Source: Bacteroidota bacterium
GTDB lineage: Bacteria > Bacteroidota > Ignavibacteria > Ignavibacteriales > Ignavibacteriaceae
Direction of reading: 5' to 3'
Length of the DNA: 38,197 nt
NCBI GenBank assembly: GCA_021815365.1
Contig: JAKAGZ010000027.1
Location: forward strand, 1 to 38,197
The translations under genes and the position numbers were made by a program. Below the pieces are notes generated by a model that was not told where the DNA came from, searched no databases, and saw only the letters and a list, made by a program, of their open reading frames with translations. Numbering within the stretch: the first letter of the stretch is position 1; each line of letters opens with the position of its first letter. Shown piece after piece: positions 3,334 to 34,447 of this stretch.

Positions 3334-3343
3334 ACGGTTCCTC

Positions 3344-4324: not shown

Positions 4325-4338
4325 TTTAAATTAAAGCT

Positions 4339-5367
4339 CTAATTTTTTGTTGACAATTTTTTCTTTGCTAATATCGAATACTCCCGTTCTGCTTTCCTGA
4401 TTTTATTTGATAATCTGCCGAGCCCGGTTATCTCCAGTTCAATTGTGTCTCCTTCCTTCAGCCAGACCGGCTTGAATTCTTTTCCCTCAGCCTTTGCTTC
4501 AAGTGCGCGTGTTCCGTTCAGTTCAAGATAACATCCCGTCCCAACTGTTCCTGAGCCGATCACATCGCCGGGATAAAGCTCAACGCCGTATGAAGCACGT
4601 TCGATCAGTTCTGCGAAAGTCCAGTCCATATCTTTCATATTTCCATCAGAGACCAGCTTGCCGTTATGATAAGCTGTCATACGCAGATCATATTTATTCC
4701 CGTACTGAGTTGCAATTTTATATTTTTCAAGTTCATCAACAGTTACAAGCCATGGACCGATCACAGTAGCAAAGTCCTTTCCTTTTGCAGGACCAAGATT
4801 TAATTTCATTTCTTCCATCTGCAGAACTCTTGCAGAGAGGTCATTCATTATCATATAACCGGCTATGAATGAATCTGCATCCCGTGCCTCGATATTTTTT
4901 CCTTTTCTGCCAATTACGACAGCGGCTTCGAGTTCGAAGTCAAGCTTTTCAAGATGATCTTTTTCCACGACTATTTCACCCTCGCCAAATATTGTTAGGT
5001 GGTTCGTCATATAAAAAACAGGATACTGATCGAACTCAGGGATCATTTCTACACCGCGGTTTCTTCTTGCAGTTGCAACATGCTGCCGGAAGGCATAGCC
5101 GTCACGGCAGGAAGTTGGATGAGGCACTGGAGCTAACATTTTTATTTTTTCTTTTTCAACTCCTGATTTTACTTTTTCATTCTTAATTGCTTCGTCAACT
5201 TTTTTAGCCCGAAGAACCAAGTTATCAAAATCATTTAAAAAATCATTCATCGTTGACGGCAGATTAATGTTCAACTCTTTACCGGTATTTTGCAGATCGT
5301 AAATTTTGCCGTTGTAAAAAAGCCCTGCCCGTTCTGTATTATTATTTAAGAATGATATTAACTTCAT
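4339..5367 (-). CDS. Fumarylacetoacetate hydrolase family protein
   Basis: This FAH-family enzyme (342 aa) probably hydrolyses fumarylacetoacetate to fumarate and acetoacetate, the last ring-derived step of tyrosine degradation. An N-terminal FAA_hydrolase_N-like segment (MKLISFLNNNTERAGLFYNG) precedes the catalytic domain. The metal-binding pattern is visible as DFELEAAVVIG (Glu-x-Glu) and MNDLSAR (Asp), with the family's GKDFATVIGPWLVT and GSGTVGTGC segments. The length matches the shorter bacterial enzymes next to hmgA, not the longer eukaryotic type. I prefer the ATG at 5367 to a GTG one codon upstream. The assignment within this broad hydrolase family rests on the neighbouring homogentisate dioxygenase gene; alone the sequence could belong to another diketo-acid hydrolase. 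Confidence 0.9.
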   Translation of the reverse strand: MKLISFLNNNTERAGLFYNGKIYDLQNTGKELNINLPSTMNDFLNDFDNLVLRAKKVDEAIKNEKVKSGVEKEKIKMLAPVPHPTSCRDGYAFRQHVATARRNRGVEMIPEFDQYPVFYMTNHLTIFGEGEIVVEKDHLEKLDFELEAAVVIGRKGKNIEARDADSFIAGYMIMNDLSARVLQMEEMKLNLGPAKGKDFATVIGPWLVTVDELEKYKIATQYGNKYDLRMTAYHNGKLVSDGNMKDMDWTFAELIERASYGVELYPGDVIGSGTVGTGCYLELNGTRALEAKAEGKEFKPVWLKEGDTIELEITGLGRLSNKIRKAEREYSILAKKKLSTKN

Positions 5368-5392
5368 CACTTCACCGTTTGTTCAGGAAATT

Positions 5393-6517
5393 TTATTGTG
5401 CAGAATATACTTTATGTTTCTCAACAAGCCTGGGATAAACTTCGCTGATTATGTTCAATGCAAAATCAGTTTCTTCATCTGTGCCGGAATTTATCCTTAT
5501 CGCATTTGGAATTCCGAAAGATTTTACGTGCCTGAGTATCAATCCCCTGTTTAAGCACTCTTCATTAAAATCCACAGTAAATTCTTCAGTGGGAAAAACC
5601 AGCAGATAAAAATTTGCAGCAGTCGGGACACAGCTAATATAAAGTTCATCAAATTTTTTCTTCATTTTCTGAAGTGAGGATTTATTCATTTTTTTTGTTC
5701 TATCAAGAAATTCATCGTCCTCCAATGCAGCAATGGCAGCCTCCTGCGCAAGAGCGTTTGGTTCAAAGGGGAGCTTAACTTTATAAATTTCCTTAATCAG
5801 ATATTCAGGTCCAAAAGCTATGCCGAGCCTTAAGCCAGCAAGCCCGTAAGCTTTTGAAAGCGTTCGCAGCACAATGAGGTTTTCATTGTTATATTCAAGC
5901 CCGTTCGGATAACCAGGATTGTCCTCAGCATAGACTGTATATGCTTCGTCTAGAACTATTAAAATATCTTCGGGAATTTTCTTCAGGAAAAGATCAAACT
6001 CAGTCTTTGTGAACATCGTACCGGTCGGGTTGTTCGGGTTCGCAAGATAAATGATTTTTGTTTTTTGATTTACATTATCAGCAATTGCATCAAGATCATA
6101 ATGAAAATTTTTTAAAGGAACGTGAGTAGATTTTCTGCTGTATTTATCAGCATTGACGTACCATCCAATGAAAGTTCCTTGTGAAGTCAGCATCTCATCA
6201 TCTTCATCACTGAAAGCAGTGATTATATATTGAAGCAGTGCATCTGAGCCGCTTGCTGTGACGATCTGTCCTGGCTGCTTTTTATATTTTCTTGCAATTG
6301 CTTGAACAAGTTTATATGCTGATGGATTTGTATAACGGTGCAGATCTGCAAGATGTTCTTTTATAACTTCTATGGCTTTGGGAGATGGTCCGAGCGGATT
6401 TTCATTCGAAGCAAGCTTCACAATTTTCTTAATGCCTTTTTCACGGGCAAGTTCTTCGATCGGTTTTCCGGCTTTGTATGGTTTCAACTCCCGTATGTGT
6501 TTCGGAATTGTAATCAT
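5393..6517 (-). CDS. HisC-like PLP aminotransferase, probable aromatic aminotransferase
   Basis: A fold-type I class II aminotransferase of 374 residues, most similar to histidinol-phosphate aminotransferase. Visible motifs are KLASNENPLGPSPKA, the PLP-phosphate ASGSDALLQ, NPNNPTG (about 160-166), VLDEAY with D190, and the Schiff-base Lys in RTLSKAYGLAGLR (K222). The ATG at 6517 begins one base after the hmgA stop codon, a tightly coupled arrangement; an in-frame TTG four codons upstream would overlap hmgA and is less likely. The gene lies inside the tyrosine-degradation cluster and no other his gene is present. I therefore infer that it transaminates tyrosine and/or phenylalanine to the arylpyruvate used by Hpd, rather than acting mainly in histidine synthesis. 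Aromatic activity of HisC-type enzymes is well established. Confidence 0.88.
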   Translation of the reverse strand: MITIPKHIRELKPYKAGKPIEELAREKGIKKIVKLASNENPLGPSPKAIEVIKEHLADLHRYTNPSAYKLVQAIARKYKKQPGQIVTASGSDALLQYIITAFSDEDDEMLTSQGTFIGWYVNADKYSRKSTHVPLKNFHYDLDAIADNVNQKTKIIYLANPNNPTGTMFTKTEFDLFLKKIPEDILIVLDEAYTVYAEDNPGYPNGLEYNNENLIVLRTLSKAYGLAGLRLGIAFGPEYLIKEIYKVKLPFEPNALAQEAAIAALEDDEFLDRTKKMNKSSLQKMKKKFDELYISCVPTAANFYLLVFPTEEFTVDFNEECLNRGLILRHVKSFGIPNAIRINSGTDEETDFALNIISEVYPRLVEKHKVYSAQ

Positions 6518-6518
6518 A

Positions 6519-7682
6519 CTATTTCTCAAGCCAGGAATGATGATAATCTTCGACCATAGTTTCTTTTACATTTTTTGTTACATTCAAATGAGAAAAAGTG
6601 TCGATCATTATTGCATACTCGTCTGTTTCTTTTTTCCCGATAGAAGCTTCTGTTTTACCGGGCTGCGGCCCGTGCGGAATACCCATCGGGTGAAGAGTTA
6701 TCGAGCCTTCCTGCACTCCTGTCCTCGACATAAAGTCTCCATAAACGTAATAGAGAACTTCATCGCTGTCAACATTTGAATGGTAGTACGGAGCCGGAAT
6801 TGCATCAGGATGAAAATCGAAAAGACGCGGGACAAAATTACAAACTACAAAATGCTCTGTTGTGAACATCAAATGTATTGGCGGAGGCAGATGTATCTTC
6901 CCGACCTTCGGGGCATATTCTTTTAAATTAAAGGTGTAGGGATATAAATAGCCGTCCCACCCGACAACGTCAAAAGGATGATGAGGAAGTTCATACTTAA
7001 AGGTTCTGTTCGACACTTTAAGAATGAGTTCGAACTTACCTGATTTATCTGTCGGTTCCATAAACTGCGGCACTTTGAAATCCCTCTCATAATACGGCGC
7101 ATCTTCTTTAAGCTGCCCGTATTCATTTCTGAAATGAGCCGGAATCTCAAAAGGTGTATCGGATTCTATGATGAATAATTTTACCTTGTCAAAATTTTTG
7201 AACTTCATCTGGTAAGTCGTTCCCTTTGGTACCACGATATAATCCCACTGTTCGAAAGGAAGCCTTCCGTACTCTGATAAAAAATCGCCCTGCCCGTAAT
7301 GAACAAAAACTATCTCGTGCTTGTAGCTGTTCCTGTAAAAAATATCAGCGTCTTCAGTAACATGCGCAGTAGAAATTATGCAGTGATCGTTTTTCAAAAA
7401 TTCTTTCCTTGCAGAAAGAAAATTGCCATTTGATTTTTTCTTATCAGTCATAAAATGATAATACTGAAGCGGCGCATCAGCCCATTCATTAGAATCACCA
7501 GCATTCACTTCCTCGATACTTTCAACCTGCGGCGGCATGTACAAGTGATATTTATTAGAATAAATTCCCGAAAAACCCTTTGTACTGAACAGCTCCTCTC
7601 TGTAAAGGGATTTTCCATCGGGTTTATAAAAAGTCGTATGTCTTTTAGGAGGAAGTTTTCCTACCTTAACATAAAATGGCAT
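6519..7682 (-). CDS. hmgA: Homogentisate 1,2-dioxygenase
   Basis: A ring-cleaving, non-haem Fe(II) cupin-fold enzyme converting homogentisate to maleylacetoacetate. It is 387 residues long, a compact version of the family. The C-terminal iron site is visible: H301 and E308 in YYHSNVDSDEVLYYV, and H337 in HPMGIPHGPQPG. Other family segments include HHPFDVVGWDGYLYPY and FVPRLFDFHPDAIPAPYYH. The ATG at 7682 follows a good GGAGG with about seven bases of spacing. It sits 80 bp after hpd and is followed with a one-base gap by the aminotransferase, so these genes form one transcription unit. Bacterial versions of this type share only moderate similarity with the longer human and Pseudomonas enzymes, but the iron ligands and neighbours leave little doubt. 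Confidence 0.95.
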   Translation of the reverse strand: MPFYVKVGKLPPKRHTTFYKPDGKSLYREELFSTKGFSGIYSNKYHLYMPPQVESIEEVNAGDSNEWADAPLQYYHFMTDKKKSNGNFLSARKEFLKNDHCIISTAHVTEDADIFYRNSYKHEIVFVHYGQGDFLSEYGRLPFEQWDYIVVPKGTTYQMKFKNFDKVKLFIIESDTPFEIPAHFRNEYGQLKEDAPYYERDFKVPQFMEPTDKSGKFELILKVSNRTFKYELPHHPFDVVGWDGYLYPYTFNLKEYAPKVGKIHLPPPIHLMFTTEHFVVCNFVPRLFDFHPDAIPAPYYHSNVDSDEVLYYVYGDFMSRTGVQEGSITLHPMGIPHGPQPGKTEASIGKKETDEYAIMIDTFSHLNVTKNVKETMVEDYHHSWLEK

Positions 7683-7762
7683 TTGAAACCTCCGTTATTT
7701 TGTTCTAAAAAATTTTCTATCAAAATTAAAACCTGTTATTTTACGGGCTTTTTAAGTTCAAT

Positions 7763-8890
7763 TTATTCTTCAGGGTCCTTGTCAAAATTTCCTCTCAGCA
7801 TCTGGTCCTTTTCAATTGATTCAAAGAGCGACTGGAAATTTCCCTGCCCGAATCCCTGCGCACCTTTGTTCCTCTGAATTATTTCATAAAAGAAAGTAGG
7901 TCTGTCTCCTATCGGCTTAGTGAACAATTGAAGAAGATAACCTGTGCCTTCCGAATCATCGCAAAGAATACCATGTTTTTTCAATTCATTAATATCTTCA
8001 GCTATGTCGAGCTTCTTTTCTTTTAACATTTCATAATAAGTATCGGGTGGCTGTAAAAACTCAACTCCGTTTGCTTTCATCGCAGCGATAGTTTCGATCA
8101 CATTGGGAGTTGTAATAGCAATATGCTGAACGCCTGAGCCAAAATACTCTTCGATATATTCTTCAATCTGTGATTTCTTTAATCCTTCATAAGGTTCATT
8201 CAAAGGATTTTTTATAGGTGCTCCTTCTTTCGAGCGGACTACTTTCGAAAGCAAAGCGGAATACTGTGTAGAAATATCACCGGCGCCAAATTCGATGAAT
8301 GTCTCAAAATTTAAACTCTTATTAAAGTAGTCCGCCCAGCGGTTCATTTCATTTATTCTCACATTGCCGACGATGTGGTCAATGGATTGCAAGCCGGTTG
8401 GTTTGGCGTCTATTTTAATTTTTTGTCTTGGTTCACCGAATCCTGGTTTGAAAATTCCTTTATAGTTATCTCTGTTTATAAAAACGATTTCTGTATCGTC
8501 ATAAAGTTTTATTGCAGCTTCCTCAACGTAACCTTTGTCATCGCTCAACTTTTTATAATTTCTGACAGGGATCGCACCATTTTTAATTGAGTTATTGAAT
8601 GCTGTCTTTACATCTTTAACATTCAGCGACCAGCGTTTAACTCCATCACCGTGCTGCTGAACAAATAAATTTATATCTGCCGTTCCGGGTTTTATGGCAG
8701 ACGTCACAACGATTTTAACATTGTTAAGTTCCATTAAATATGAAACTCTGTCCTTCACTCCATATTCCGGACCTGAATAGGCTTTGATATTCATGCCCAT
8801 ACCTTTCGCATGCCAGTAAGCCCACATTTTTGCCGAGCCGACATAAAATTCTACGTAATCATAACCGGTTATTCCAATCGGGTGTGCCAT
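7763..8890 (-). CDS. hpd: 4-Hydroxyphenylpyruvate dioxygenase
   Basis: An Fe(II)-dependent vicinal-oxygen-chelate dioxygenase that converts 4-hydroxyphenylpyruvate to homogentisate. Its 375 residues make two VOC modules, and the catalytic C-terminal one shows all three ligands: H172 in SIDHIVGNV, H256 in GSGVQHIAITT and E336 in FFYEIIQR. The GTGYLLQLFTKPIGDRPTFF segment is typical. I prefer the ATG at 8890, seven bases after AGGAGA, to a TTG one codon upstream. It is preceded by the Lrp-type regulator gene (72 bp) and followed by hmgA. The following features fix the substrate: the catalytic triad, the family length and the neighbouring hmgA. A hydroxymandelate synthase, the closest alternative, would not be expected in this context. 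Confidence 0.95.
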   Translation of the reverse strand: MAHPIGITGYDYVEFYVGSAKMWAYWHAKGMGMNIKAYSGPEYGVKDRVSYLMELNNVKIVVTSAIKPGTADINLFVQQHGDGVKRWSLNVKDVKTAFNNSIKNGAIPVRNYKKLSDDKGYVEEAAIKLYDDTEIVFINRDNYKGIFKPGFGEPRQKIKIDAKPTGLQSIDHIVGNVRINEMNRWADYFNKSLNFETFIEFGAGDISTQYSALLSKVVRSKEGAPIKNPLNEPYEGLKKSQIEEYIEEYFGSGVQHIAITTPNVIETIAAMKANGVEFLQPPDTYYEMLKEKKLDIAEDINELKKHGILCDDSEGTGYLLQLFTKPIGDRPTFFYEIIQRNKGAQGFGQGNFQSLFESIEKDQMLRGNFDKDPEE

Positions 8891-8962
8891 CAAGATTTCT
8901 CCTGTTTATTTATAAAATATATTTTGAAAGTTCAGGCTACCGAACACTATAAAACAATTCTA

Positions 8963-9412
8963 TCAGAAAACAAGTTCTGAAGTTTCTTTAACAGTTTCAA
9001 GAACTATCGTAGTACTTGTCGAACTTATAGAACCGATAGAAGCGATTTCACCTCTCAGGAGTTCAGTAAGTGCTGCAGTATTTTCAACACGCACCTTCAC
9101 AAGGAAACAATCTTCTCCAGCAACTATATGAACTTCCTGTACCTCAGGAACATTAGCCAATTTTTTTGCTGTACTTTTATCCACTATCGGACCGTTCGCT
9201 TTAACCAGAATAAAAGCAAGTAATTCTTTTTCAACTTCCGAGGCATCTATCTGTGCAGTATATTTTTTAATGATCTTATTATTTTCCAGCTTTTTTATTC
9301 GCTCAAGAACTGCCGATGGCGCCATATTGATCTGCCTTGCAATTTCAGCATTCGAAATTCTTGAGTTTGACTGTAATATATTCAGAATTTTTGCATCAAT
9401 TTTGTTGATCAT
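8963..9412 (-). CDS. Lrp/AsnC-family transcriptional regulator
   Basis: An amino-acid-responsive DNA-binding protein of 149 residues. The N-terminal winged helix-turn-helix is seen in DAKILNILQSNSRISNAEIARQ and MAPSAVLERIKKLE. A RAM ligand-binding domain follows (about 65-145), with VQEVHIVAGEDCFLVKV. It is the first gene of the tyrosine-degradation cluster in transcription order and lies 72 bp upstream of hpd. It is therefore the obvious local regulator, with aromatic amino acids as the likely effectors (inference from family and position). The upstream 120 bp contain AT-rich sequence but no operator that I can define. The ATG at 9412 lacks a strong ribosome binding site. Confidence 0.92.
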   Translation of the reverse strand: MINKIDAKILNILQSNSRISNAEIARQINMAPSAVLERIKKLENNKIIKKYTAQIDASEVEKELLAFILVKANGPIVDKSTAKKLANVPEVQEVHIVAGEDCFLVKVRVENTAALTELLRGEIASIGSISSTSTTIVLETVKETSELVF

Positions 9413-17216: not shown

Positions 17217-17549
17217 ATGCAGGGAATCTTTGAGGCAGGAAAATATGATTGGGCTTTGTTTGTGGGACATTTGGTTTTGGAAAAAATACTAAAGGCACGT
17301 TGGGTGATGAATAACGAGGATAATACTCCGCCAAAGATTCATGACCTTATGAGATTAGCTAATGAATCTCAGCTTAAATTAAACGATACAGAAAAAGAAT
17401 TTTTACTTGAGGTTAATGACTTTAATATAGAGGCACGTTATGTCGATTATAAAATGGATTTCCATAAAAAATGCACGAGGGAATTCGCAGAGGAATATTT
17501 AACAAAAATCAAAGAGTACTATAATGTATTCAAAAAAGGACTTGAATAA
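17217..17549 (+). CDS. HEPN-domain protein, 5' end interrupted by an amber codon
   Basis: A HEPN helical-bundle protein; the open part has 110 residues from the ATG at 17217 (MQGIFEAGKYDWALFVGHLVLEKILKARW). The same frame continues upstream as TKQEHIKY-stop-IKTAEHDLDA, with TAG at 17184-17186, exactly where relatives have a conserved Trp (from memory), so TGG to TAG would explain it. The likely original start is TTG at 17157 or ATG at 17121. Without that segment, the first helix is missing. HEPN proteins of this type pair with MNT nucleotidyltransferases. The R-x4-6-H ribonuclease motif is not evident; the comparable place reads NIEARYVDYKMDFHKK. The gene overlaps the MNT gene by 26 bp. It may be a decaying pseudogene. 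Confidence 0.75.
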   Translation: MQGIFEAGKYDWALFVGHLVLEKILKARWVMNNEDNTPPKIHDLMRLANESQLKLNDTEKEFLLEVNDFNIEARYVDYKMDFHKKCTREFAEEYLTKIKEYYNVFKKGLE

Positions 17550-17835
17550 TTTGATAGCGCAGTTGTTGAATTTGATTAAATCTGAAATCAACATCAACAG
17601 GGTCTACCTATTTGGCTCTTATGCAAAAGGTAATGCGAATGAATACAGTGATATTGATTTAGCTTTAGTTTCAGATGACTTTGAGGGCAGCAGATTTTTT
17701 GATAAAAAAAGAATAAATAAATACTTGCTCAAGACCACAACTGATTTTCAGATCCATCCATACAAAACAGAAGAATTTACTGAAGAGAATCCCTTTGTTG
17801 CGGAAATTTTAAGAACCGGAATTAAGATAATTTGA
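17524..17835 (+). CDS. MNT-type minimal nucleotidyltransferase
   Basis: A 103-residue Pol-beta-superfamily nucleotidyltransferase domain protein. The motif YLFGSYAKGNANEYSDIDLALV has G31-S32 and the metal-binding D43-x-D45; a third acidic residue is likely the Asp in TDFQIHPYK. In HEPN/MNT modules the MNT partner neutralises a HEPN RNase by attaching nucleotides, or the pair serves other roles. It overlaps the 3' end of the HEPN gene by 26 bp, implying coupled translation. Unlike the HEPN frame, it is intact. The genes are the only plus-strand pair between purK and comEC, and look like a small accessory insertion. Confidence 0.9.
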   Translation: MYSKKDLNNLIAQLLNLIKSEININRVYLFGSYAKGNANEYSDIDLALVSDDFEGSRFFDKKRINKYLLKTTTDFQIHPYKTEEFTEENPFVAEILRTGIKII

Positions 17836-17845
17836 AACGATGTTA

Positions 17846-20296
17846 TTATTCTCTCCAATCTGCCTTCATAATTGTTTCCCCATCACTCTGAAGGATCACT
17901 GCCCCTGCTCTGTCCGTCCTGAAAATCTTTGAATGATATTTTTTCAGCCTGTCAATAATTACCTGTGAGGGGTGATTAAATTTATTCTGAATACCAACAG
18001 AGATCAGACTGATTTGAGGAGTAACAAATTGCAGAAAATTTTCCGTTGAGCTTGTACTACTCCCATGATGACCAACCTTCAGAACATCTGAATCAAGAAA
18101 TGTTTTATATTTCTCAGCGTAATAATTTTCAGCCAGACTTTCTATATCGCCTGTGAATAAAAATTCAGAATTGCCGTAAACAATCTTCAGAACACCGCTT
18201 CTGTTATTCTGGATGGAGTTTTTAAATTCGTTTACATTAAGAACATAAACTCTGACATTACCAATTTTTAAAATCTCCCTTTTATAATATTTCTTTGGAA
18301 TATGGCTTTTATCAATATAATTTTCGAATCGTACATCCTTCGAAAGAGACGTATCAAGACCTGGTTTGTATAACCTGGAAATCTTACCGCTGCGAATCAG
18401 GGAAACAAAACCCCCATAATGATCCATATCAAGATGTGTCACAAAGCCGTAATCAATTTTATCAATACCAAGATGATCAAGCAGCGGAAGCACAACTCTC
18501 TCGCCGTTATCGAAAGAATAAGTCGCCTCGCCTGCATCTATCAAAGCGGTTCTGCCATCGGGAAATTTCAGAATGAAAGAATCGCCCTGTCCTACGTCTA
18601 TCATCACTACGCTCAATTTATTATCCGGCAATAAGTTTTTATTATCAAATGTAGAGAACAAATAAAAAACAGAAGTGCATAGAGCAAGCAAAGTAATTTT
18701 AGCAGAACTATTAACGAATCTCCTGTGAAAAATAAATATAGCCGCAAGTACCAAGTAAAATAAAATTATATCGTAAAGTGAAAAATTTCTTATCCGCAGA
18801 AAAGAATAATCACCGCTTCCGGTGATGTGTATAATCCAAAAAATAAATTTTATAACAAGTTCATTAACAACACTAAAGTAAGGAGCGATTGAATTAAAAA
18901 AAGCGCCTAATGCCAAAGATAAAATTCCAATCCCGACAATAACTCCTGTTGAGGGAATTACAATTAGATTCGTGAACAAAGCAACCAGAGATAACTTGCC
19001 GAAATAAAAAATTGTAATCGGCATAGTGCCTATCTGTGCAGCAAGAGAAACGCCAACAAACAATAAAATATTTTTTATCAGATTATTTACTTCAATTTTC
19101 TTAATACCATTTTGTATCGGTGGATAGATAAGCGCAATTGAAATTACTGCAGCAAAAGAAAGCTGAAAGCCCGGTGCAAAAAGCTCGTATGGTTTGATAA
19201 AAAGTATTATTAAAGCTGCAATGGCAATCGAGTTCAATAAATTTGTCGAACGGTTGGTTATAAATGCGGTTATCAAAACAACTGACATCACTCCTGCGCG
19301 GAAAGCAGATGAGGGTGCACCGATTAGAATTATATATATAGTCAATCCCAAAACAGTAAGCAGCGAACCTGTATAAATATTAAACCTTCCGAATAAGAAT
19401 GTGAATATCAAAACGATGTAACCAACGTGCAAACCCGAGACAGCCAGTATATGAATTACCCCGGTGTTAATAAATTCTGTTTTTGTGTCGTAGGATATTT
19501 CACTTCTGTCAGCTAATAGTAAACCTCTCAGCAAACCCGCAGACTGTTCATTATATAATTTCCTTATCAGCAAGTCAATCTTTTTTCTGATAGTTAAGAT
19601 TGTATTCGCAAATACATTTTCCCTGTTGTTTATAATTTTAATTCTTGCCTGTCCGGCAGGCAGGTTTGAAGTGTTATATATATTTATTATCCCTGAAACT
19701 CCTTTCGACCTGAGATATTTATTGTAATCAAACTCACCCGGGTTTCTTTCCTCCCTTCCTTTTGAATAGTTTCCTTCAACTGCTACTTTATTGCCGATCG
19801 CTAAGACAGAATAAATAGAATCTAATTTTGATTGAGCATCTTTTCGCGAAGCGATCAGTTCTGAAATTCTGCATATAAAATTTATTTTTTCATTCTGTAC
19901 CGTATCACCACTTTGGATAGAACTTGATTCCATCTCAAAGACTATTTCTTCTTTCCTGGGAAGTTCAATATTAGTTATTTCGCCAATTACTCTTATGTTT
20001 TTTAGCCTGTAGATGTCTTCTGAAAGATAGTTGTACCCAGGTTGATTTAACTGTGCAGTTACATTTCCGAAAACCAGAACTGCAATTAGTAATAAAATGC
20101 TGTTGATATTTCTTAAAATTATAAGCGGATATTTCAAACTCAGACAATAAAGTGCAGCAGATGTTACAATCATGGCAGCAAAATAATAAATGCTGACCTG
20201 GAAAAACCGGTTCAGCAATATTCCTGCTGCAAAAAGAAGTATCAGCTTTATTGCCGGGAAATCTTTTCGCGAATCGGTCAATTCTGTCATTTGCAT
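17846..20296 (-). CDS. comEC: ComEC/Rec2-family DNA internalisation protein
   Basis: A large polytopic inner-membrane protein (816 aa) expected to carry single-stranded DNA into the cytoplasm during natural transformation. It has N-terminal membrane helices, a DUF4131/OB-like periplasmic segment (about 95-230), and a Competence domain from about 240 to 520 starting NEQSAGLLRGLLLADRSEI and containing ILAVSGLHVGYIV. A metallo-beta-lactamase-like C-terminal domain contains VMIDVGQGDSF, THLDMDHYGG, FTGDIE and KVGHHGSSTSS. Its full length and intact motifs suggest activity. ATGs at 20296 and 20290 both fit; the latter gives an ATGA overlap with the metalloenzyme stop. A palindromic insertion encoding NLPAGQAR lies near residue 215. 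No other competence gene is in the window. Confidence 0.93.
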   Translation of the reverse strand: MQMTELTDSRKDFPAIKLILLFAAGILLNRFFQVSIYYFAAMIVTSAALYCLSLKYPLIILRNINSILLLIAVLVFGNVTAQLNQPGYNYLSEDIYRLKNIRVIGEITNIELPRKEEIVFEMESSSIQSGDTVQNEKINFICRISELIASRKDAQSKLDSIYSVLAIGNKVAVEGNYSKGREERNPGEFDYNKYLRSKGVSGIINIYNTSNLPAGQARIKIINNRENVFANTILTIRKKIDLLIRKLYNEQSAGLLRGLLLADRSEISYDTKTEFINTGVIHILAVSGLHVGYIVLIFTFLFGRFNIYTGSLLTVLGLTIYIILIGAPSSAFRAGVMSVVLITAFITNRSTNLLNSIAIAALIILFIKPYELFAPGFQLSFAAVISIALIYPPIQNGIKKIEVNNLIKNILLFVGVSLAAQIGTMPITIFYFGKLSLVALFTNLIVIPSTGVIVGIGILSLALGAFFNSIAPYFSVVNELVIKFIFWIIHITGSGDYSFLRIRNFSLYDIILFYLVLAAIFIFHRRFVNSSAKITLLALCTSVFYLFSTFDNKNLLPDNKLSVVMIDVGQGDSFILKFPDGRTALIDAGEATYSFDNGERVVLPLLDHLGIDKIDYGFVTHLDMDHYGGFVSLIRSGKISRLYKPGLDTSLSKDVRFENYIDKSHIPKKYYKREILKIGNVRVYVLNVNEFKNSIQNNRSGVLKIVYGNSEFLFTGDIESLAENYYAEKYKTFLDSDVLKVGHHGSSTSSTENFLQFVTPQISLISVGIQNKFNHPSQVIIDRLKKYHSKIFRTDRAGAVILQSDGETIMKADWRE
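19646..19662. repeat. GC-rich palindrome inserted in the comEC reading frame
   Basis: TGCCTG-TCCGG-CAGGCA forms a perfect 6-bp stem with GG/CC continuation on one side, and is far more GC-rich than the surrounding gene. It is read in frame as LPAGQA within YNTSNLPAGQARIKIINN of ComEC. Similar CCTGCC...GGCAGG palindromes giving LPAG-type peptides inside proteins are remembered from other environmental bacteria, so this looks like one copy of a dispersed short palindrome. Other copies must be sought genome-wide. Confidence 0.6.
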
Positions 20297-21192
20297 ATAT
20301 TCAATATTGCCGGTTTAATGTCGGTCAAATCTTTTATAGAATCCGATAATTCTTTAGCATACCTGCCTGCAGTAATAGTTAAAGCCGGGTTGAGAGTGTG
20401 AGTCTTTACAGAAAGGTCTTCAAAGTTTCCATGATCTGAACAGATGATCAGAGTCATATTTTTTTTGTCCATTTCTGTAATTATGCAAAAAAGAAAATCA
20501 TCAAGCGTGTGAAGAATATTTTCAAAATCTCCCGCATCACGCCAGTGACCAAGATGATCGGTTAAATAATATTCATACAAAGTAAATTTATTTTTCTCTG
20601 AAATTTTCAAAAGTCTTTTAGCGGCTAATTGTGGTGTGATCCGTGGAAGTTTATAGTTCAATTTTTTTATCCACCGGTCATTTGTAATTTCTGCCGTCAG
20701 CGCTTTTCCTTTCCTGACATCTGTTGTGGTATTCAGTCTCACTCCGCTTGACCTGCAGCAATGTGTGGTTACTGAAAGTCTTCCCCTTCCTGATTTTAAG
20801 TATTCAAAAAATTGTTTTGGGTATGCGTTTGCAAAAAAGACTTTTTGACTTTTTTCAAGATAAGCTTTAAAAATATTTTCTTTTTGAATAACAGGAATTA
20901 GTGTAGAATAAGGGAAAGGACCAAAATGCTTCCCAATGTATTTTGCAGCATTCATTCCACAGAAGATCGAAGTTTGCCCTGTTCCGCTTTGAGGTAATCC
21001 ATCAACGCCAAGGCACGCATCGGTCGGGAAAATAAATGAGCCGTTATTATTAATAGCTTGCCTTTTTAACGAGGGTATTTCATCAAAGATTTCCGTAAAT
21101 GTCTTAAAGCCGTACTTAAAAAACGGGTTGAACTTGTAATCTCCATTACCGATTCCAACTCCATCTATAAATATCATTAAAACTGGATTCAA
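20287..21192 (-). CDS. Alkaline phosphatase-superfamily metalloenzyme
   Basis: A 301-residue protein of the phosphopentomutase/cofactor-independent phosphoglycerate mutase/phosphatase clan. MIFIDGVGIGNGD contains the first metal Asp (D10). PQSGTGQTS (about 68-75) supplies the likely nucleophilic Thr, YYLTDHLGHW a metal Asp and His pair, and LIICSDHGNFEDL the Asp-His pair; a further His lies in KTHTLNP. The metal ligands thus look complete. The substrate is unknown; this family of compact proteins is poorly studied. The given start is TTG and supplies MNPVLMIFIDG; an ATG at 21177 is the alternative. It is in tight order between dtd (8 bp) and comEC (overlap). Confidence 0.8.
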   Translation of the reverse strand: MNPVLMIFIDGVGIGNGDYKFNPFFKYGFKTFTEIFDEIPSLKRQAINNNGSFIFPTDACLGVDGLPQSGTGQTSIFCGMNAAKYIGKHFGPFPYSTLIPVIQKENIFKAYLEKSQKVFFANAYPKQFFEYLKSGRGRLSVTTHCCRSSGVRLNTTTDVRKGKALTAEITNDRWIKKLNYKLPRITPQLAAKRLLKISEKNKFTLYEYYLTDHLGHWRDAGDFENILHTLDDFLFCIITEMDKKNMTLIICSDHGNFEDLSVKTHTLNPALTITAGRYAKELSDSIKDLTDIKPAILNICK

Positions 21193-22610: not shown

Positions 22611-23342
22611 TCATTCAGTTAAAAAATGGTAAATGAGTATCCCCAGGTTTATCTGCAAAGCTCCGAATGCAATCCCGCTTACCAGGTCGTACCTGTGTGT
22701 GCTATCGAGAGAAGTCTGCTTCTGCGTTTTCTGGTAATCGCTGAAAGCATTATCTGCTTTTATCTTAAAATATGCTGTTGCCGCACCGAAAACTAAAATC
22801 CCGCCGATAAGATATTTAAATACCGGTCTTTCATAAAAACTTTTTTCTTCCTGCGAGCCTGTAAAAATTAATTTAACAATTCTGCCATCTGCAAAATCGC
22901 TTTGGCTGATTTTCTTTGCCTGATAACCTGTCTTTCTCAGAACAAGCGGGAAAATTTCTGAAGAAATAAATAAAGGGGTGTAGCCAATCAAAGAATCGCC
23001 GGTAAAAACTTTTACATCCTGCGGATCAGAATTTAAATAAGTTTGTTTTCTGAATGAATACAACAAAGTCGTATCTTTCCTGCAGTTATCTATAGATAAA
23101 CTATCGTTGAACATTTCTGCTTCCCATTCTTTCCCGGAGGCTGTAACAGTAATATCATAAATCCCTTTTTCAAGTTCCGTTGATACGACACCTTTTCCCG
23201 CTAACTTGTTATTAATGTAGATAAGCGAATTGTCAAGATCTGTTTTTATCTCGACTTTTGATTTACAATCTTGTGCAGCCGCAGAACCAGAAATAAGAAC
23301 AAAAATTATAAGGCTGCCGAAAATTTTATTTTTCAAATTCAT
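22611..23342 (-). CDS. PEGA-like domain membrane protein
   Basis: A 243-residue exported or membrane protein with an N-terminal signal (KIFGSLIIFVLISGSAAAQ). Two PEGA-like beta segments follow: VEIKTDLDNSLIYINNKLAGKGVVSTELEKGIYDITVTASG and QDVKVFTGDSLIGYTPLFISSEIFPLVLRKTGYQ. The C-terminus has two hydrophobic stretches (YLIGGILVFGAATAYF and GIAFGALQINLGILIYHFL) flanking a polar segment of about 30 residues. PEGA domains occur in surface-layer and envelope proteins, where they may bind carbohydrate or protein. I take the ATG at 23342 because it starts directly before the signal; an earlier in-frame start would extend further into the preceding gene. It overlaps the propeller lipoprotein gene by 17 bp. 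The role is unknown. Confidence 0.72.
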   Translation of the reverse strand: MNLKNKIFGSLIIFVLISGSAAAQDCKSKVEIKTDLDNSLIYINNKLAGKGVVSTELEKGIYDITVTASGKEWEAEMFNDSLSIDNCRKDTTLLYSFRKQTYLNSDPQDVKVFTGDSLIGYTPLFISSEIFPLVLRKTGYQAKKISQSDFADGRIVKLIFTGSQEEKSFYERPVFKYLIGGILVFGAATAYFKIKADNAFSDYQKTQKQTSLDSTHRYDLVSGIAFGALQINLGILIYHFLTE

Positions 23343-24471
23343 ACGCCTGCAATACTCCACGGTCAAATCCAATAAATAAAATATTTTTATAAAGAACTGG
23401 AGTCAACTTTGCTCTGCCGTCAAGCTGAAGTGTCTTCTCAGTTTTTCCATCTACTTTTGAAATTATGTGCAGCTCACCGTTCAAATCAGGAATGAATAAA
23501 AAATTATTAGTTATCAACGGAGTAACGTTAAATAATCCCTCTGAATGGAACTTCCATTTTACTTTTCCGGATTTTAAGCCAAGAGCAAAAAAATCACCAT
23601 TCAAATTGCCTGCATAAACATTCTCATCATCAAAGGCAGGTGTCATCGCAACTCTTGCGCCTGTATTGAACTGCCAGGATATTTTTCCTGTCTTCAATTC
23701 AACGGCGTAAATAGTACCGTTATCATTGCCCAAAAATGCAGTACCATTTTTTATGGAAACGCCCCCGAGAAAGTGTCCGCCGATCTTATTTTTATAAATT
23801 ATTTTGCCTTCCTTGTTGTCAACACAGATTATTTCGCCATCATCATCACCAAGAATGATCATCCCGTTTTCAAATGCGGGAGAGACGTGTATGTGCGAAT
23901 CAATTTTTATTTTCCATCCGGGTAAACCATAGGAATTATATTTCAATATCTGACCGTCTTCTGTTGCAGCGGCGTAACCGTCATTTGTAGAGACGATCTC
24001 GTTTATAATTCTACCGGGTACTTTGATGTCTCTGAATACTGTCCCCTCGGAAAAATCATAAAAGTAAAGTATGGATTCATTATCATCCGGAATGGCAACA
24101 GCATAAATTATCAGAAACTTTGAGATTATCGGAGCTGTGTAAACCGCGCCTTTATCTTTCAGATACCCTATCTCCTTTCCGTTGTAAAAATTAAAAGCAT
24201 AAACCTTGCCTGAAAGGTCGCCGATGAAAACCAATGAGTCGTTTATCGTAACTGATGTATTCGCAAATCCACCGCTCGTGCTTGTTTCCCATTTCAGTTT
24301 TAATGAATCGCTGACTGATTCCGGTACAAAAAAATTTCTCTGCGGTGTACTGCCGAACATTGAAAATGCCTCCGGGTCAATCTTTGTTTTAACTTTGATG
24401 ATCGTAATAGAGCAGGCTTCAAGAAAAACTATTAATACTATAAGCGGAATGATCTTTTTCAAAAATCCCAT
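23326..24471 (-). CDS. PQQ-like beta-propeller lipoprotein
   Basis: A 381-residue lipoprotein (lipobox FLEAC, C20). It is largely an eight-bladed-type propeller built of PQQ/BamB-like repeats: DSLVFIGDLSGKVYAFNFYNGKEIG, GMIILGDDDGEIICVDNKEGKIIYK, GTAFLGNDNGTIYAVELKTGKISW, NVYAGNLNGDFFALGLKSGKVKW, FLFIPDLNGELHIISKVDGK and ILFIGFDRGVLQAYEFEK. BamB assists beta-barrel assembly, but here the gene neighbours an Omp85-like barrel gene; a scaffold role with that barrel is an inference. It has no quinoprotein dehydrogenase sequence outside the repeats. It overlaps the upstream barrel gene by 13 bp and the downstream PEGA gene by 17 bp, so all three are translationally linked. Confidence 0.83.
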   Translation of the reverse strand: MGFLKKIIPLIVLIVFLEACSITIIKVKTKIDPEAFSMFGSTPQRNFFVPESVSDSLKLKWETSTSGGFANTSVTINDSLVFIGDLSGKVYAFNFYNGKEIGYLKDKGAVYTAPIISKFLIIYAVAIPDDNESILYFYDFSEGTVFRDIKVPGRIINEIVSTNDGYAAATEDGQILKYNSYGLPGWKIKIDSHIHVSPAFENGMIILGDDDGEIICVDNKEGKIIYKNKIGGHFLGGVSIKNGTAFLGNDNGTIYAVELKTGKISWQFNTGARVAMTPAFDDENVYAGNLNGDFFALGLKSGKVKWKFHSEGLFNVTPLITNNFLFIPDLNGELHIISKVDGKTEKTLQLDGRAKLTPVLYKNILFIGFDRGVLQAYEFEK

Positions 24472-27275
24472 CCGAAGAAAAATTGGTAAAATAATCCATT
24501 CTGAAAACGCGCAAAATTATCTTCGATTTTTTTTCCAACATCATATCTTAAAACAATAGCTCCAAGCAGATTAAACCTTACACCGGTGCCGATGCTTCCG
24601 AGTGTTTGCTTGTATTTATTATCCCACGCCCCGCCCATGTCAAAAAACACTGCGCCTCTTAGTCCGAAGAACCCAAGGTTAATGAATGGGAACTTCAGAT
24701 TTATTTCGTCAATAAGAGGGAAACGATATTCAACAGAAGACAGCCAAAGTTTTTCACCCCTGATTGAAAAGCGGGGCCATCCTCTCAAATCCCAGCTTCC
24801 GCCCATAAAATACCTGCGCGCTTCTTTTCCATCGTTATAAAACACAGCAGTACGCAAAGCCAGTGCTGAGCGGAGAGTCAGCCGCATGTAATATCTGAAA
24901 TCACCGATAAACGTGTAATAGTCCACGTTGCTGAATTTCACATCGCCTGTGTACCCGAATAAAAGCCTTGCGCGCATTCCATCAAGAGGTCCTGTAGGTC
25001 CCCAAAGTGAGTTATCAAAAATATAAGAAAGTGTGTTGCTGACAAGGAGGGCTTTTCGCTGCTGTACTCCTATTACAATTTCTTTATCTGAATTTGCAAC
25101 TGTGACAGACGTTTCTATTCTTTCAAATTTTGAAAGCGGAAAGCTAAGTGTAAAAAAACCTCCAAAGCTTCGTTCAAAATAGTATTCATTAACATCCTGC
25201 AGATCGTACCTGTTACCTGTAAAATGAAAAACACCGTAGCCGTAGTTTGTTCGTTTACCTAAATCAACTTTTTCCAGCACAATATTGAAGCTGTTAAAAA
25301 AATCACTCTGGCGCTGGGCGCTGTTATAAATCGTAAAGAAGTAATTGTCATTCCCGAGCATATCACTCAGTAAAATTTCAGCCCCGCCCTGCGTACCAAA
25401 AATAGGATCGGTGGAAACCTGGCTCTGCGCATAATCGAGCGAATATTGTTTTTCATAATTCAGCTTTTGTCTTTCAGAATTTGATGCAAGCATAATAGGT
25501 TCCCATATGCCGCCTGCAAGATTAAAATTCATATCCATAGTAAATGAACTGTCGGCAGCAGCTTTTTTATAATCCATTGTGAAAAGGTTAAACTCGTAAT
25601 TTTCAAAACCGGCAAATGTGATCTCCGTGCTGTCAAGAAAGACAGGATTATAGACGCTTGTTAAAAAATTTGATAACCGTCTGGCGTTATCAGAAAATTT
25701 TCCATCGTTAATATTTATCATATAAATATTTCTTACCCCGTCAATTTCAGAAGTAAACATCAGGCGGGATTTATCCGGAGAAACTACTGGAGAAGAACAA
25801 TTAGAGTTAACATAAGTAACATAGCTGATCTTATGTGTGGTCAGATTCATCGAGAACAAATTATATTTTTTTGAATAGCTGCCTGCAGTTCTGTCTGAAG
25901 AAAAAATAACGTGGTTGTCATCAATTCCGAAGGCAGGGTCCCTGTCATCGTAAATATCGTTCGTTATTCTTTCGAGCTTATCATCAGAAAGGTTCAGAAT
26001 AAAAAGATCGCTGTATCCTTTGCTGTCAACAGCCTGAAAAATAACTTTCTTTCCGTCAGAAGAAAATTTAGGAGAGCTGATACTGATCAGATCATTGTTT
26101 CTGTAAGTGCTGATAACCTGGTTTTCTTTTACAGAATAAAAATGTATCGCATCTCTTCCACCAACCTTTGTAACAAAAGCGATTATTCCATCTTTTGAAA
26201 TATCTATCGCTGACTGGAATAAGTGAAACGCTTCATATTGCTCTCTCGTTTCGCCGCGTAAAACAAGCTCAGGTGTTTTTTGTTTTTCGTTCTCAACATT
26301 TAACCGCACCCGGTATAATGATGAATAACCATCCCTGTTAGCGACAAAGTACAGAAATTTGCTGTCATTAATTTTATACGGCACAGGTGAAAAATTAAAA
26401 CCAAAGTTTGTAACCTGTCGTGCTGAAATTCTTATCGGCGTCTTTGTCTTAAAAAGCGGATAGTATTTTTTCTTTAAATAATAGTTCCATTCCTGATCAA
26501 TCTCTTCAATTGGTTTACCGAGAGTGTAAGCGATGTCTTTTTCAAATTTGCTGTACATCCAGATATTATCAACAAGCTGAAGAACTTTTTCTTTGCCGTA
26601 TTTTTCTTTTACGAATTCGAGGAAGTTCTGCCCTTCTTTATACATCTGGAATGAGCCGTATATCTTGTAGAAATCCTGCAAACCAACGAAATAATCATTA
26701 AAGATCGCATCGCGCATAACCATTTCAGCTTGTGCATCAGGCTTTGTTGACATGAACTCCGCTAATCCTTCTGAGTACCACAGCGGCGGGTATGTTCTTG
26801 AAATGCTTCGGTGATCGGACTGAACACGCGCTACTTTATTCGTCATAAAAACATGAACAAGCTCGTGCCTTATAACGTGTCTGAAATCGTGCAGTGAACC
26901 TGTTGATGGAATCACCACCCTGCCTTTGGCAAACTCAAAAAATCCGCCGACAGCATCCGGAATAAATCCCGGCGTTGTGTTCGTCTGCTGAAACTGAAGA
27001 GAAGTGTTATAAAAAATCAACGGGATACGCCTGCTGATCAGCGTGTTGAATTTTACTTTAAATTCTGTATAAGTGCTTTCGGCAATCGCAGCACCGATTT
27101 CGGCAATGTTAAGAAGATCGTTATAATAATAAATATCGAAATGCTCGGTTCGCAGAATCTTCCAATCGAAATTATCATACTGAACTTTGTTCCTTCCAAA
27201 ATTGGAATAGAACTGAGCGTGAATCAAACTAGCGGAACAAAACAAAAGTATCAGAATATTTCTGACAGATTTCAT
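24459..27275 (-). CDS. Gluzincin-like / PD40 propeller / Omp85-like barrel protein
   Basis: A 938-residue outer-membrane protein with three regions. A signal peptide ends near residue 20. Residues about 40-280 resemble gluzincin peptidases: RHELVHVFMTNK gives H137-E138-x2-H141, and YSEGLAEFM gives the third ligand E173. Residues about 290-610 carry PD40/TolB-like propeller repeats (FSSDGKKVIFQAVDSKGYSDLFILNL, VSPDKSRLMFTSEIDGVRNIYMINI). Residues about 640-938 look like an Omp85/surface-antigen barrel with the loop GGSWDLRGWPRFSIRG and a C-terminal Phe. The domain order suggests a periplasmic or surface enzyme held by a barrel. Substrate, and whether the peptidase is active, are unknown. It is the first gene of a three-gene overlapping unit. 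Confidence 0.82.
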   Translation of the reverse strand: MKSVRNILILLFCSASLIHAQFYSNFGRNKVQYDNFDWKILRTEHFDIYYYNDLLNIAEIGAAIAESTYTEFKVKFNTLISRRIPLIFYNTSLQFQQTNTTPGFIPDAVGGFFEFAKGRVVIPSTGSLHDFRHVIRHELVHVFMTNKVARVQSDHRSISRTYPPLWYSEGLAEFMSTKPDAQAEMVMRDAIFNDYFVGLQDFYKIYGSFQMYKEGQNFLEFVKEKYGKEKVLQLVDNIWMYSKFEKDIAYTLGKPIEEIDQEWNYYLKKKYYPLFKTKTPIRISARQVTNFGFNFSPVPYKINDSKFLYFVANRDGYSSLYRVRLNVENEKQKTPELVLRGETREQYEAFHLFQSAIDISKDGIIAFVTKVGGRDAIHFYSVKENQVISTYRNNDLISISSPKFSSDGKKVIFQAVDSKGYSDLFILNLSDDKLERITNDIYDDRDPAFGIDDNHVIFSSDRTAGSYSKKYNLFSMNLTTHKISYVTYVNSNCSSPVVSPDKSRLMFTSEIDGVRNIYMININDGKFSDNARRLSNFLTSVYNPVFLDSTEITFAGFENYEFNLFTMDYKKAAADSSFTMDMNFNLAGGIWEPIMLASNSERQKLNYEKQYSLDYAQSQVSTDPIFGTQGGAEILLSDMLGNDNYFFTIYNSAQRQSDFFNSFNIVLEKVDLGKRTNYGYGVFHFTGNRYDLQDVNEYYFERSFGGFFTLSFPLSKFERIETSVTVANSDKEIVIGVQQRKALLVSNTLSYIFDNSLWGPTGPLDGMRARLLFGYTGDVKFSNVDYYTFIGDFRYYMRLTLRSALALRTAVFYNDGKEARRYFMGGSWDLRGWPRFSIRGEKLWLSSVEYRFPLIDEINLKFPFINLGFFGLRGAVFFDMGGAWDNKYKQTLGSIGTGVRFNLLGAIVLRYDVGKKIEDNFARFQNGLFYQFFFGWDF

Positions 27276-32623: not shown

Positions 32624-34447
32624 TTAAAATTCTCTGAATTCAGCTTCATTAAGATATAATCTGTCAACCTTTGTTCTTCCTCTGAGCGAATTAGTGAGGA
32701 TGATCTCGTCGCAGACAAGCAGATCATCCAGGTGCAAAATATTTTCTGTAATATTTTTGTCGCTTTCAAGCCAGAGTTTCCTTTCAATTCCGGGAAGCAG
32801 CCCGCATTTAACCGGGGGTGTGAACCAGTTATTTCCTTTCCTGATAAAAATATTTGAAATAGCTCCCTCAGTTATCTGCCCTGCTTCATTTAAAAATATA
32901 ATATCAAAAAAACCTTTTGCAGTATGTTCAGAATACCCTTTGTCATAAAGCTTCCTGTTATCAGTCTTGAAATACTGAAAAGTATTTTCCGATGAAACTT
33001 TTTTCTGAGAAATTATGACTCTTACCTGATCAGGTTTAGCGGGGAATTCATTAATTAAAAGCCGTACATCACCCCATTTATTAAGTGTAAGTTTTATTCT
33101 TTTCAGCCCGAATTCATTCTCCAGACTTTTATTTATTTCTTCTCTGATTTTATTTTCATCAAAGCGGAACAAAAAATAATCTGCAGAAGCCTTCAATCTT
33201 TTAAGGTGTTCATCCAGGTTATGGACTTTACAATTTTCAAACTTCATTGTTTCAAACAATATAAATTCTTTTACAGGATTGGTTAAAAACCTGCTCTTTA
33301 AAATCGTTTCAGAGAACTCTTTCTCCGGGTCGCTGTCCCACACAATTCCGCTCCCAAGACCAATTTCGCCATTTCCGTTCTTATCAATTCTTATCGTACG
33401 GATCGCAACATTAAAAACAGATTTATCTTTTTGCACCATTCCGATCGCACCTGTGTATATCCCTCTTGCCTCATTTTCAAGTTCGTTTATTATTTCCATT
33501 GTTCTTATTTTCGGAGCACCTGTAACCGAACCACAAGGAAAAATATTTTTAACTATATCAGAAAGCATAATTTTTCCCCTTAGCTGCGACTTTACTGTTG
33601 ATACCATCTGAAAAACTGATTCATATTTTTCAACTTCAAATTTTTCTGTTACTTTAACTTTTCCATATTCACTTATTTTACCGATGTCATTCCGGAGAAG
33701 ATCAACTATCATAATATTCTCAGCGCAGTCCTTTTCACTAGTTGCAAGTTCATAACGATGCAGATTGTCATCAAAGATATTCAGCCCTCTTTCCATTGTT
33801 CCCTTCATTGGTTTGGTGATTATCTTCCTTCCAGTCTGTTCAAAAAATAATTCGGGAGATAATGAAACGATAACGCTGTCACCGAGATTAATAAAAGCAG
33901 AATACTTAGCTGACTGATTAAATACCAGCGTCTTAAAAAAATTTACAAGGTCACCTTCAAACCGGAATTTCCCTTTGACCGTGTAATTGACCTGGTATGT
34001 ATCGCCGCGGGCAATATAACTTTTTATTTTCTTAATATTAGATATATATTCCTTTTTCGTTGTATTAAGTCTGAATGAGAAAACCCGGAAATTACTTCCT
34101 GTCGAAGTGAATTTTATTTTTTCAGAATTATATTTTATAACCTGGTCTGAATTAAATAAAAAGCCTCTGAATAAATTTTCATTTTTCTTCTTCAGATGTT
34201 TTTTCAATTTTGGTTCAAAGCTGTATCCCGCTTCGTAACCAACGATACAGAAGCCTCGTTTTTTCTCAGTTACTGACAAATAAAATTTTTCAATAGTACT
34301 TATTAGTGAACGACCACTGCGTGAGTAAAAAATTTTCGAAGGAGATTTAAAGAAGTAGCTTTTAGCGCTATTGTATATCGGGGGTGTATAAAAAAAAGCA
34401 GACCCTTTTGTTTTCAGGACCTGCTTTAAAATTTCATCTATTGTCAT
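32624..34447 (-). CDS. pabB: Fused aminodeoxychorismate synthase component I / aminodeoxychorismate lyase
   Basis: A 607-residue fusion for making 4-aminobenzoate, the folate precursor. Residues about 110-375 form the chorismate-binding domain, with KSYIARGDTYQVNYT, KPMKGTMERG, ENIMIVDLLRNDIGKI, CGSVTGAPKIRTMEII and YTGAIG. Residues about 385-600 are a class IV PLP lyase (PabC-like): LFETMKFENCKVHNLDEHLKRL, the likely PLP lysine in YFKTDNRKLYDKGY, and AGQITEGAISNIFI. This combination performs amination and pyruvate elimination together with a PabA glutaminase, which is not seen here. The start codon ends a 10-bp palindrome, and its first 15 codons are duplicated 740 bp upstream. Confidence 0.93.
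   Translation of the reverse strand: MTIDEILKQVLKTKGSAFFYTPPIYNSAKSYFFKSPSKIFYSRSGRSLISTIEKFYLSVTEKKRGFCIVGYEAGYSFEPKLKKHLKKKNENLFRGFLFNSDQVIKYNSEKIKFTSTGSNFRVFSFRLNTTKKEYISNIKKIKSYIARGDTYQVNYTVKGKFRFEGDLVNFFKTLVFNQSAKYSAFINLGDSVIVSLSPELFFEQTGRKIITKPMKGTMERGLNIFDDNLHRYELATSEKDCAENIMIVDLLRNDIGKISEYGKVKVTEKFEVEKYESVFQMVSTVKSQLRGKIMLSDIVKNIFPCGSVTGAPKIRTMEIINELENEARGIYTGAIGMVQKDKSVFNVAIRTIRIDKNGNGEIGLGSGIVWDSDPEKEFSETILKSRFLTNPVKEFILFETMKFENCKVHNLDEHLKRLKASADYFLFRFDENKIREEINKSLENEFGLKRIKLTLNKWGDVRLLINEFPAKPDQVRVIISQKKVSSENTFQYFKTDNRKLYDKGYSEHTAKGFFDIIFLNEAGQITEGAISNIFIRKGNNWFTPPVKCGLLPGIERKLWLESDKNITENILHLDDLLVCDEIILTNSLRGRTKVDRLYLNEAEFREF

Follow-up and report, generated by a model that had tools for sequence, protein, structure and literature searches.

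We analysed a 38,197-nucleotide (nt) stretch of DNA, here called the window, from a bacterium of the Ignavibacteriaceae (assembly GCA_021815365.1, contig JAKAGZ010000027.1), and focused on three genes, A, B and C, which overlap in that order on the minus strand. Gene A encodes a fusion of a gluzincin-like peptidase domain, a TolB-like propeller and an Omp85-type barrel, gene B a BamB-like lipoprotein, and gene C a protein with PEGA-type domains and a helical hairpin, and the three products may work together in the biogenesis of the outer membrane. The coordinates and reading frames originally predicted for the trio were correct and are given with the other features in Table 1.

Three overlapping genes and their products

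The overlaps of the original prediction were found again, with 13 nt shared by A and B and 17 nt by B and C. The open reading frame (ORF) of C as first called covered positions 22611-23372 of the minus strand, but its true start is probably the ATG at 23342, corresponding to Met11 of the ORF, because a methionine stands there in 70 of 82 aligned sequences, and the 17-nt overlap follows from this start. The identical 13-nt overlap between A and B was seen in 34 of the 67 named loci (see below) that have B. The ATG of B is apparently supplied by the conserved GWDF end of the A barrel. Because the overlap sits in these conserved codons, constraint on the barrel alone could preserve it, and the case for a selected coupling device was weakened.

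Table 1. Positions of the genes and protein features discussed in the text
Feature	Position	Strand
Gene A, 938-amino acid (aa) peptidase-MA/TolB-like propeller/Omp85 barrel protein	24459..27275	-
A, predicted signal peptide, aa 1-20 (putative cleavage site; Gln21 nearly invariant)	27216..27275	-
A, gluzincin-like peptidase domain, aa 38-290	26406..27164	-
A, HExxH motif (H137, E138, H141)	26853..26867	-
A, E169, at +28 from H141, predicted to be the third ligand of the zinc	26769..26771	-
A, A172 (putative hydrophobic basement) and E173 (putative second shell), roles taken from ColG/ColH	26757..26762	-
A, TolB-like propeller, aa 293-575	25551..26399	-
A, 16-stranded Omp85/BamA-type barrel, aa 611-938, with loop-6-type RG-aromatic 831-833 and GWDF end	24462..25445	-
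A stop/B start overlap, 13 nt, within codons of the GWDF end	24459..24471	-
Gene B, 381-aa BamB-like PQQ-propeller lipoprotein	23326..24471	-
B, lipidation Cys20	24412..24414	-
Gene C from its likely ATG, 243 aa, PEGA-type domains then helical hairpin	22611..23342	-
C, PEGA domain by Pfam, aa 29-70	23133..23258	-
C, predicted membrane helical hairpin, aa 173-242, putative insertion, conserved K-x2-AD..Y..D motif	22617..22826	-
Region of the 1066-aa paralogue of A, contig 44 of the same genome	L199:665-10593 and L200:551-3052	

The AlphaFold2 model of A, built from a 69-sequence alignment (mean pLDDT 86.5, pTM 0.84), showed an alpha/beta domain that ends near residue 290, a stretch resembling a propeller that reaches to near residue 575, and 16 long strands from residue 611. 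Peptidase_MA_2 of Pfam matched the whole protein with an E-value of 3.8e-6 and 27.3 bits and the N-terminal domain alone with 30.7 bits, both below the cut-off of 32.4, and at E<=0.01 it matched 38 of 39 aligned N-terminal domains, including that of the window. The active-site residues were intact: none of the 69 aligned relatives departed from H137, E138, H141, E169, or E173, and 68 had A172. Of 41 short-type rows one was truncated, and the 40 with residues at these positions all kept the HExxH motif with E169, A172, and E173, as did each of the 20 long-type rows with residues there, so that the conservation check proposed with the original prediction turned up no loss. The combination that marks gluzincins of the MA clan, HExxH with a downstream Glu, was thus present in 69/69 sequences at the level of the residues of a predicted zinc site.

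In the clostridial collagenases ColG and ColH, as the available part of the source describes them, a Glu that follows the motif at a distance of 28 residues is the third zinc ligand, the floor of the active site is formed by an Ala three residues past this ligand, and a Glu one helical turn past it steadies a zinc histidine (PMC3711286). Because H141, E169, A172, and E173 reproduce this layout, the third zinc ligand of A is most likely E169, with E173 in the second shell. Of the active site first proposed, H137, E138, and H141 therefore stand, while E173, conserved but better placed in the second shell, was rejected as a ligand in favour of E169 on the ColG/ColH spacing. The M9 collagenase family PF01752 gave 16.7 bits against a cut-off of 26 and matched 7 of 39 members at E<=0.01, and a search of PDB sequences with the peptidase profile returned only weak collagenase matches (best E 0.017). 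Because profile similarity to collagenase over the whole family is weak, A is best described, judging from its sequence, as sharing the active-site layout of these enzymes and not their family membership. A flagellinolysin profile matched A at E 1e-4, and the match list from structure comparison of the A model was filled by propellers and barrels.

For the propeller, PD40 of Pfam was above its cut-off, and the model over residues ~305-575 matched TolB with Z scores of 24-26, with unrelated propellers at about 22. The TolB model TIGR02800 did not reach its cut-off (77/343 bits) and covered the propeller part only. The C-terminal third of A matched PF01103 (Omp85) with 48.3 bits, twice the cut-off of 24, in a separate profile search; a filtered hmmscan of A did not list this family. 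The barrel model (region ~612-938) aligned with BamA over 283-304 residues at 3.2-3.7 Å (Z 22.5-23.7). A loop-6 motif of the RGF/Y type is a signature of the Omp85 superfamily, and in the A proteins the corresponding Arg831 was kept in 69/69 sequences, Gly832 in 64/69, and Trp, Tyr, or Phe at position 833 in 66/69. Together these matches bear out the peptidase-propeller-Omp85 fusion that had been proposed. A chance or artefactual origin of the fusion was rejected, as the relatives encode it in a single open frame with no internal stops in nearly every listed row.

No POTRA domain was found in A, and in a profile search of the genome contig C12 had no POTRA match at E<=0.01; the POTRA matches of the genome were confined to contigs C44, C56, C13, C3, and C98, with five of them (one under the cut-off) falling within one 834-aa BamA. 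PF00149 was not among the Pfam families of A at E<=1, and the Pfam scan found no patatin domain in A.

The description of B as a PQQ-propeller lipoprotein was confirmed by PQQ_2 (76.3 bits, cut-off 27.6) and by the lipidation cysteine, which aligned in 108 of 108 sequences. The B profile found BamB structures at E ~1e-48, and designed propellers and other PQQ proteins ranked equal to or above BamB. Two or more acids within six residues past the lipid Cys were found in 0/108 sequences (SITIIK in the window), and according to the available part of one source such acids are a mark of surface lipoproteins (PMC12578637).

The PEGA-type character of C also held, with PF08308 at 22.2 bits, just above the cut-off of 20.8, and at E<=0.01 in 33 of 41 aligned members. 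The model of C (mean pLDDT 92.6, pTM 0.67) ended in a long helical hairpin, and a second PEGA-type domain could be read from it after the one recognised by Pfam. C appears to carry a signal peptide and a hairpin in the membrane, and we infer the anchoring with caution, because hydropathy detected the hairpin patchily among relatives (no segment in 7/82). Foldseek gave no match to C at E<=0.001. Since B, with no surface-export acids, and C, with its inner-membrane-like appearance, both look periplasmic, the 'surface machine' that had been suggested for the trio was not supported.

Conservation, linkage and longer relatives

Searches for related loci matched at least 591 stretches, 543 of them encoding relatives, and the best 80 (the named loci) spanned Ignavibacteria, Rhodothermales, Calditrichota, KSB1, Zixibacteria, and Neomarinimicrobiota. 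Linkage of the three genes, whose confinement to one genome would have counted against the original prediction, extended well beyond the genome of the window: 67 of these 80 loci had B (contig end in 5) and 45 had C (contig end in 18) no more than 3 kb downstream of A. In a sample of 395 genomes from the phylum, 251 had an A-type match at E<=1e-20, some of them weak and perhaps partial, and 139 matched the B profile, many of these matches being other propellers; of the 89 strongest B matches in this sample, 82 lay directly behind an A. Neighbour clustering of the best 80 loci, many with short flanks, gave no recurrent fourth gene that could be a cargo. The next commonest neighbours were PTS enzyme I-like and phosphoglucose isomerase-like genes, named by likeness to window genes and found in 35/80 loci each. 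Carriage of A on plasmids came down to one partial match, covering 54% of A, in Salinibacter ruber.

Within the order, we surveyed 59 genomes, in which A of the short type represented by the window was read as present in 48 (in G014 in part only) and absent in 11, with cut-offs of E<=1e-14 for B, chosen after the values had been seen, and E<=0.001 for C. The 48 genomes with short A had B in 46 cases and C in 42, and the 11 genomes lacking it had neither at these cut-offs (Fisher p for association with short A, 3e-10 for B and 4e-8 for C, uncorrected for kinship). In genus g4, one genome had all three genes and the other had none. POTRA matches were present in 59/59 genomes, including the 11 without short A, and among the matches listed a BamA-sized ORF (833-858 aa) was found for 10 of these 11. 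SprA was found in 57/59 genomes, again including all 11 without short A, and the two genomes without SprA were 76% and 81% complete; a tie of the trio to type IX secretion was rejected on this ground, as SprA occurs both with and without short A.

When 61 chosen sequences were placed in a midpoint-rooted tree, the short type formed one clade (0.989) that extended across several phyla and stood apart from the long types. Linkage to B was present on the deepest branches of this clade, and six of the seven members shown without B formed one nested clade.

The genome of the window encodes two longer relatives of A, of 1066 and 1045 aa. The gene for the former closes a same-strand run that starts with bamA, ompH/skp, lpxD, lpxC-fabZ, and lpxA and continues through genes for a lipoate ligase-like protein, panB, a propeller protein, pfkB, a cytidylyltransferase, a 1537-aa AsmA/TamB-like protein, and RNase R. 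In 20 loci picked for sufficient upstream sequence (16 within the order, 4 more distant), the TamB-like protein was present in 17 and RNase R in 18. Among the 53 genomes with both a long paralogue and a BamA-sized POTRA ORF listed, 27 had the two on the same contig, and they were 15.5-23.2 kb apart in 25 of these and 46.9 and 105 kb apart in the other two. From the neighbourhood of bamA, lpx, TamB-like, and RNase R genes, a part in outer-membrane biogenesis follows for the long form and, by likeness, for the family.

The 1537-aa protein matched the TamB equivalog NF047952 with an E-value of 7e-21 but only 73.9 of the 825 bits of its cut-off, and DUF748 at 2e-9 with 36.6 bits, below the cut-off of 50; no solved relatives were found at E<=0.01. 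The canonical TamB family PF04357 had no match in the genome at E<=10, which makes the 1066-aa paralogue a possible substitute for the translocation and assembly module (TAM). The 1045-aa protein is a third, more distant peptidase-propeller-barrel protein of this genome (L076:3595-6732, contig 91), and similar proteins at L087, L089, and L093 shared one branch with it in the 61-sequence tree.

A possible machine for outer-membrane assembly and quality control

We consider the chances about even that A, B, and C form a dedicated, periplasm-facing accessory machine for the biogenesis and quality control of the outer membrane, because the barrel, the BamB-like lipoprotein, the protease, and the inner-membrane-type partner vanish together while the POTRA-bearing Omp85 proteins stay. 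The N-terminal segments of BamA and TamA are periplasmic. We infer a platform on the periplasmic side, contacts among the three proteins, proteolysis, and a set of clients. A would be seated in the outer membrane by its barrel, whose lateral gate may insert or release the clients as in BamA and TamA. In place of POTRA domains, A would have a periplasmic platform made up of its TolB-like propeller and of a zinc endopeptidase, active and with a collagenase-like geometry of the active site, which may trim clients or destroy stalled ones as BepA does on the beta-barrel assembly machinery (BAM). B, on the inner leaflet, would dock onto A and complete the platform, and C, anchored in the inner membrane with periplasmic PEGA domains, may tether the assembly towards the inner membrane or the cell wall.

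Several observations weigh against this explanation. A was found without B in 8 of the 80 best loci (in one, L172, only 465 bases are left) and C was not found in 17; since some lineages keep A without B, and more keep it without C, the partners are not strictly needed. Seven of the 89 strongest B matches did not lie behind an A, five in genomes with a listed A on another contig and two in genomes with none listed, and a wider B profile (E<=1e-20) matched three of four sample genomes without short A (G016, G037, and G043, not G026), although the matches listed for G043 were partial and lay in ORFs of 630 and 643 aa. B stayed under the cut-off of the BamB equivalog TIGR03300 (135/285 bits), and A has no POTRA3 to which B could bind in the manner of BamB. 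The neighbourhood of the long paralogue supports the long kind itself and not A directly.

Four other explanations deserve consideration. An operon that is self-contained, combines inner-membrane-type, lipoprotein, and outer-membrane components, and is present or absent as a unit would also suit the export of one particular protein, lipoprotein, or polymer over the outer membrane, with the peptidase maturing the cargo; given that the neighbour clustering gave no recurring gene that could serve as cargo and that the distribution of SprA shows no tie to type IX secretion, we regard this as rather unlikely. It is unlikely that the barrel of A exports its own peptidase and propeller to the cell surface as in type Vd secretion (PlpD, FplA). 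In PlpD a single chain does place an enzyme ahead of an Omp85 barrel, as the available part of the source has it (PMC4104836), and the collagenase-like active-site layout would suit a surface protease. Neither patatin nor POTRA was detected in A, however, a 280-residue propeller beside the barrel would need to cross it, and the linked lipoprotein without surface-export acids and the inner-membrane-type PEGA protein would be left unexplained.

The strong match of B to BamB structures and the position of a paralogue of A close to bamA could also mean that B is simply the BamB of this lineage and A a protease-bearing adaptor docked on BamA. We find this improbable, as A carries its own complete Omp85 barrel and the 11 genomes of the order without short A, clear B, and C all keep POTRA matches. 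An enzyme of envelope maintenance, acting on wall peptides or lipoproteins without inserting proteins and using its barrel as a mere anchor, would account for the TolB-like propeller of A and the PEGA domains of C: TolB works with the wall-binding lipoprotein Pal, and PEGA domains are frequent in surface and wall proteins. The Omp85 signature residues are nevertheless kept across phyla, beyond the needs of an anchor, and this explanation is to us highly improbable.

Building on the accessory-machine explanation, we tentatively raise the possibility, which we think is on balance doubtful, that bacteria of the FCB (Fibrobacteres-Chlorobi-Bacteroidetes) group have a third, ancestral Omp85 machine besides BAM and TAM. 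In it the POTRA arm would be replaced by a propeller and a protease, with the long form replacing TAM where PF04357 is missing (an absence seen in the genome of the window) and the short form having its own BamB-like and PEGA partners. If so, a single polypeptide would both insert outer-membrane proteins and proof-read them by proteolysis. In bacteria, Omp85 proteins form the central machinery for inserting proteins into the outer membrane, and a barrel with its own protease and propeller, linked to two partner genes over several phyla, would unite insertion with quality control. It would mean that much of the Bacteroidota, together with sister phyla, assembles the outer membrane with an extra component which, to our knowledge, lies outside the Escherichia coli machinery as usually described.

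Other genes of the window and comparison with known systems

Elsewhere in the window, a HEPN gene overlaps a minimal nucleotidyltransferase gene (17217-17835), likely a HEPN-MNT toxin-antitoxin pair. A probable cluster for aromatic amino-acid degradation (1363-8893) encodes a homogentisate dioxygenase, an FAA hydrolase, a glyoxalase/HPPD-like protein, an aminotransferase, and an AMP-binding enzyme, with an AsnC/Lrp regulator beside it (8963-9412). Another gene (32624-34447) joins a chorismate-binding domain to a class IV aminotransferase domain and resembles PabB-PabC, and a small metalloenzyme of the alkaline-phosphatase superfamily (20287-21192) lies between a Dtd-like gene, named from sequence, and ComEC.

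Among known systems, BAM with the proteases BepA and YcaL resembles the proposed machine in combining an Omp85 barrel, a BamB-like lipoprotein, and a zinc metalloprotease at the site of assembly, and BepA, in the available part of the source, cleaves clients that have stalled on BAM (PMC13067283). In A, by contrast, the predicted protease is fused and matches Peptidase_MA_2 and not M48, and a propeller takes the place of the POTRA domains; an ordinary POTRA-bearing BamA is encoded alongside A in the same genome. TAM (TamA or TamL with TamB) likewise pairs an Omp85 barrel with an inner-membrane-type partner, and the long paralogue stands beside a TamB-like protein, whereas no POTRA domain was found in short A and its partner is a PEGA-hairpin protein and not of the AsmA/TamB type. 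PlpD shares with A the single-chain order of enzyme and barrel, but where PlpD has patatin and POTRA, A has a metallopeptidase and a propeller, and it comes with two extra partner genes. ColG and ColH share with A the HExxH motif, the Glu at +28, and, three and four residues past that Glu, an Ala and a second Glu, although similarity to collagenases G and H and to flagellinolysin over the whole domain is weak and, as far as the available parts of the sources go, collagen is unsupported as a substrate of A (PMC3711286, PMC5595980).

The closest relatives are the WD40-Omp85 proteins, named in 2014 by Heinz and Lithgow, which have an N-terminal TolB-like propeller, an Omp85 barrel, and no POTRA, as does A, and which the authors likened to a BamA-BamB fusion acting as a platform, according to the available part of the paper (PMC4104836). 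The 'Metallo' subfamily of Omp85 proteins, in the same available text, is defined by PF00149, and the HExxH domain of A is different (PMC4104836). The group of A is likely the WD40-Omp85 group, the two having been compared by description. The domain order thought unusual in the original prediction is therefore not unique, as the order of propeller and barrel was already named in 2014; its statement that no function had been named for the combination stood, in that searches of open-licence PMC, in which most papers were assessed from their titles and the opening lines of their abstracts, found no other papers on a peptidase-propeller-Omp85 combination. In the available text of the 2014 paper, the main text does not use the word 'peptidase' and section 10 does not mention partner genes (PMC4104836). 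The propeller-barrel architecture was thus already known, and the peptidase and the partner genes go beyond the WD40-Omp85 class as described; with them, that class would gain partners, an active site, and predictions open to testing.

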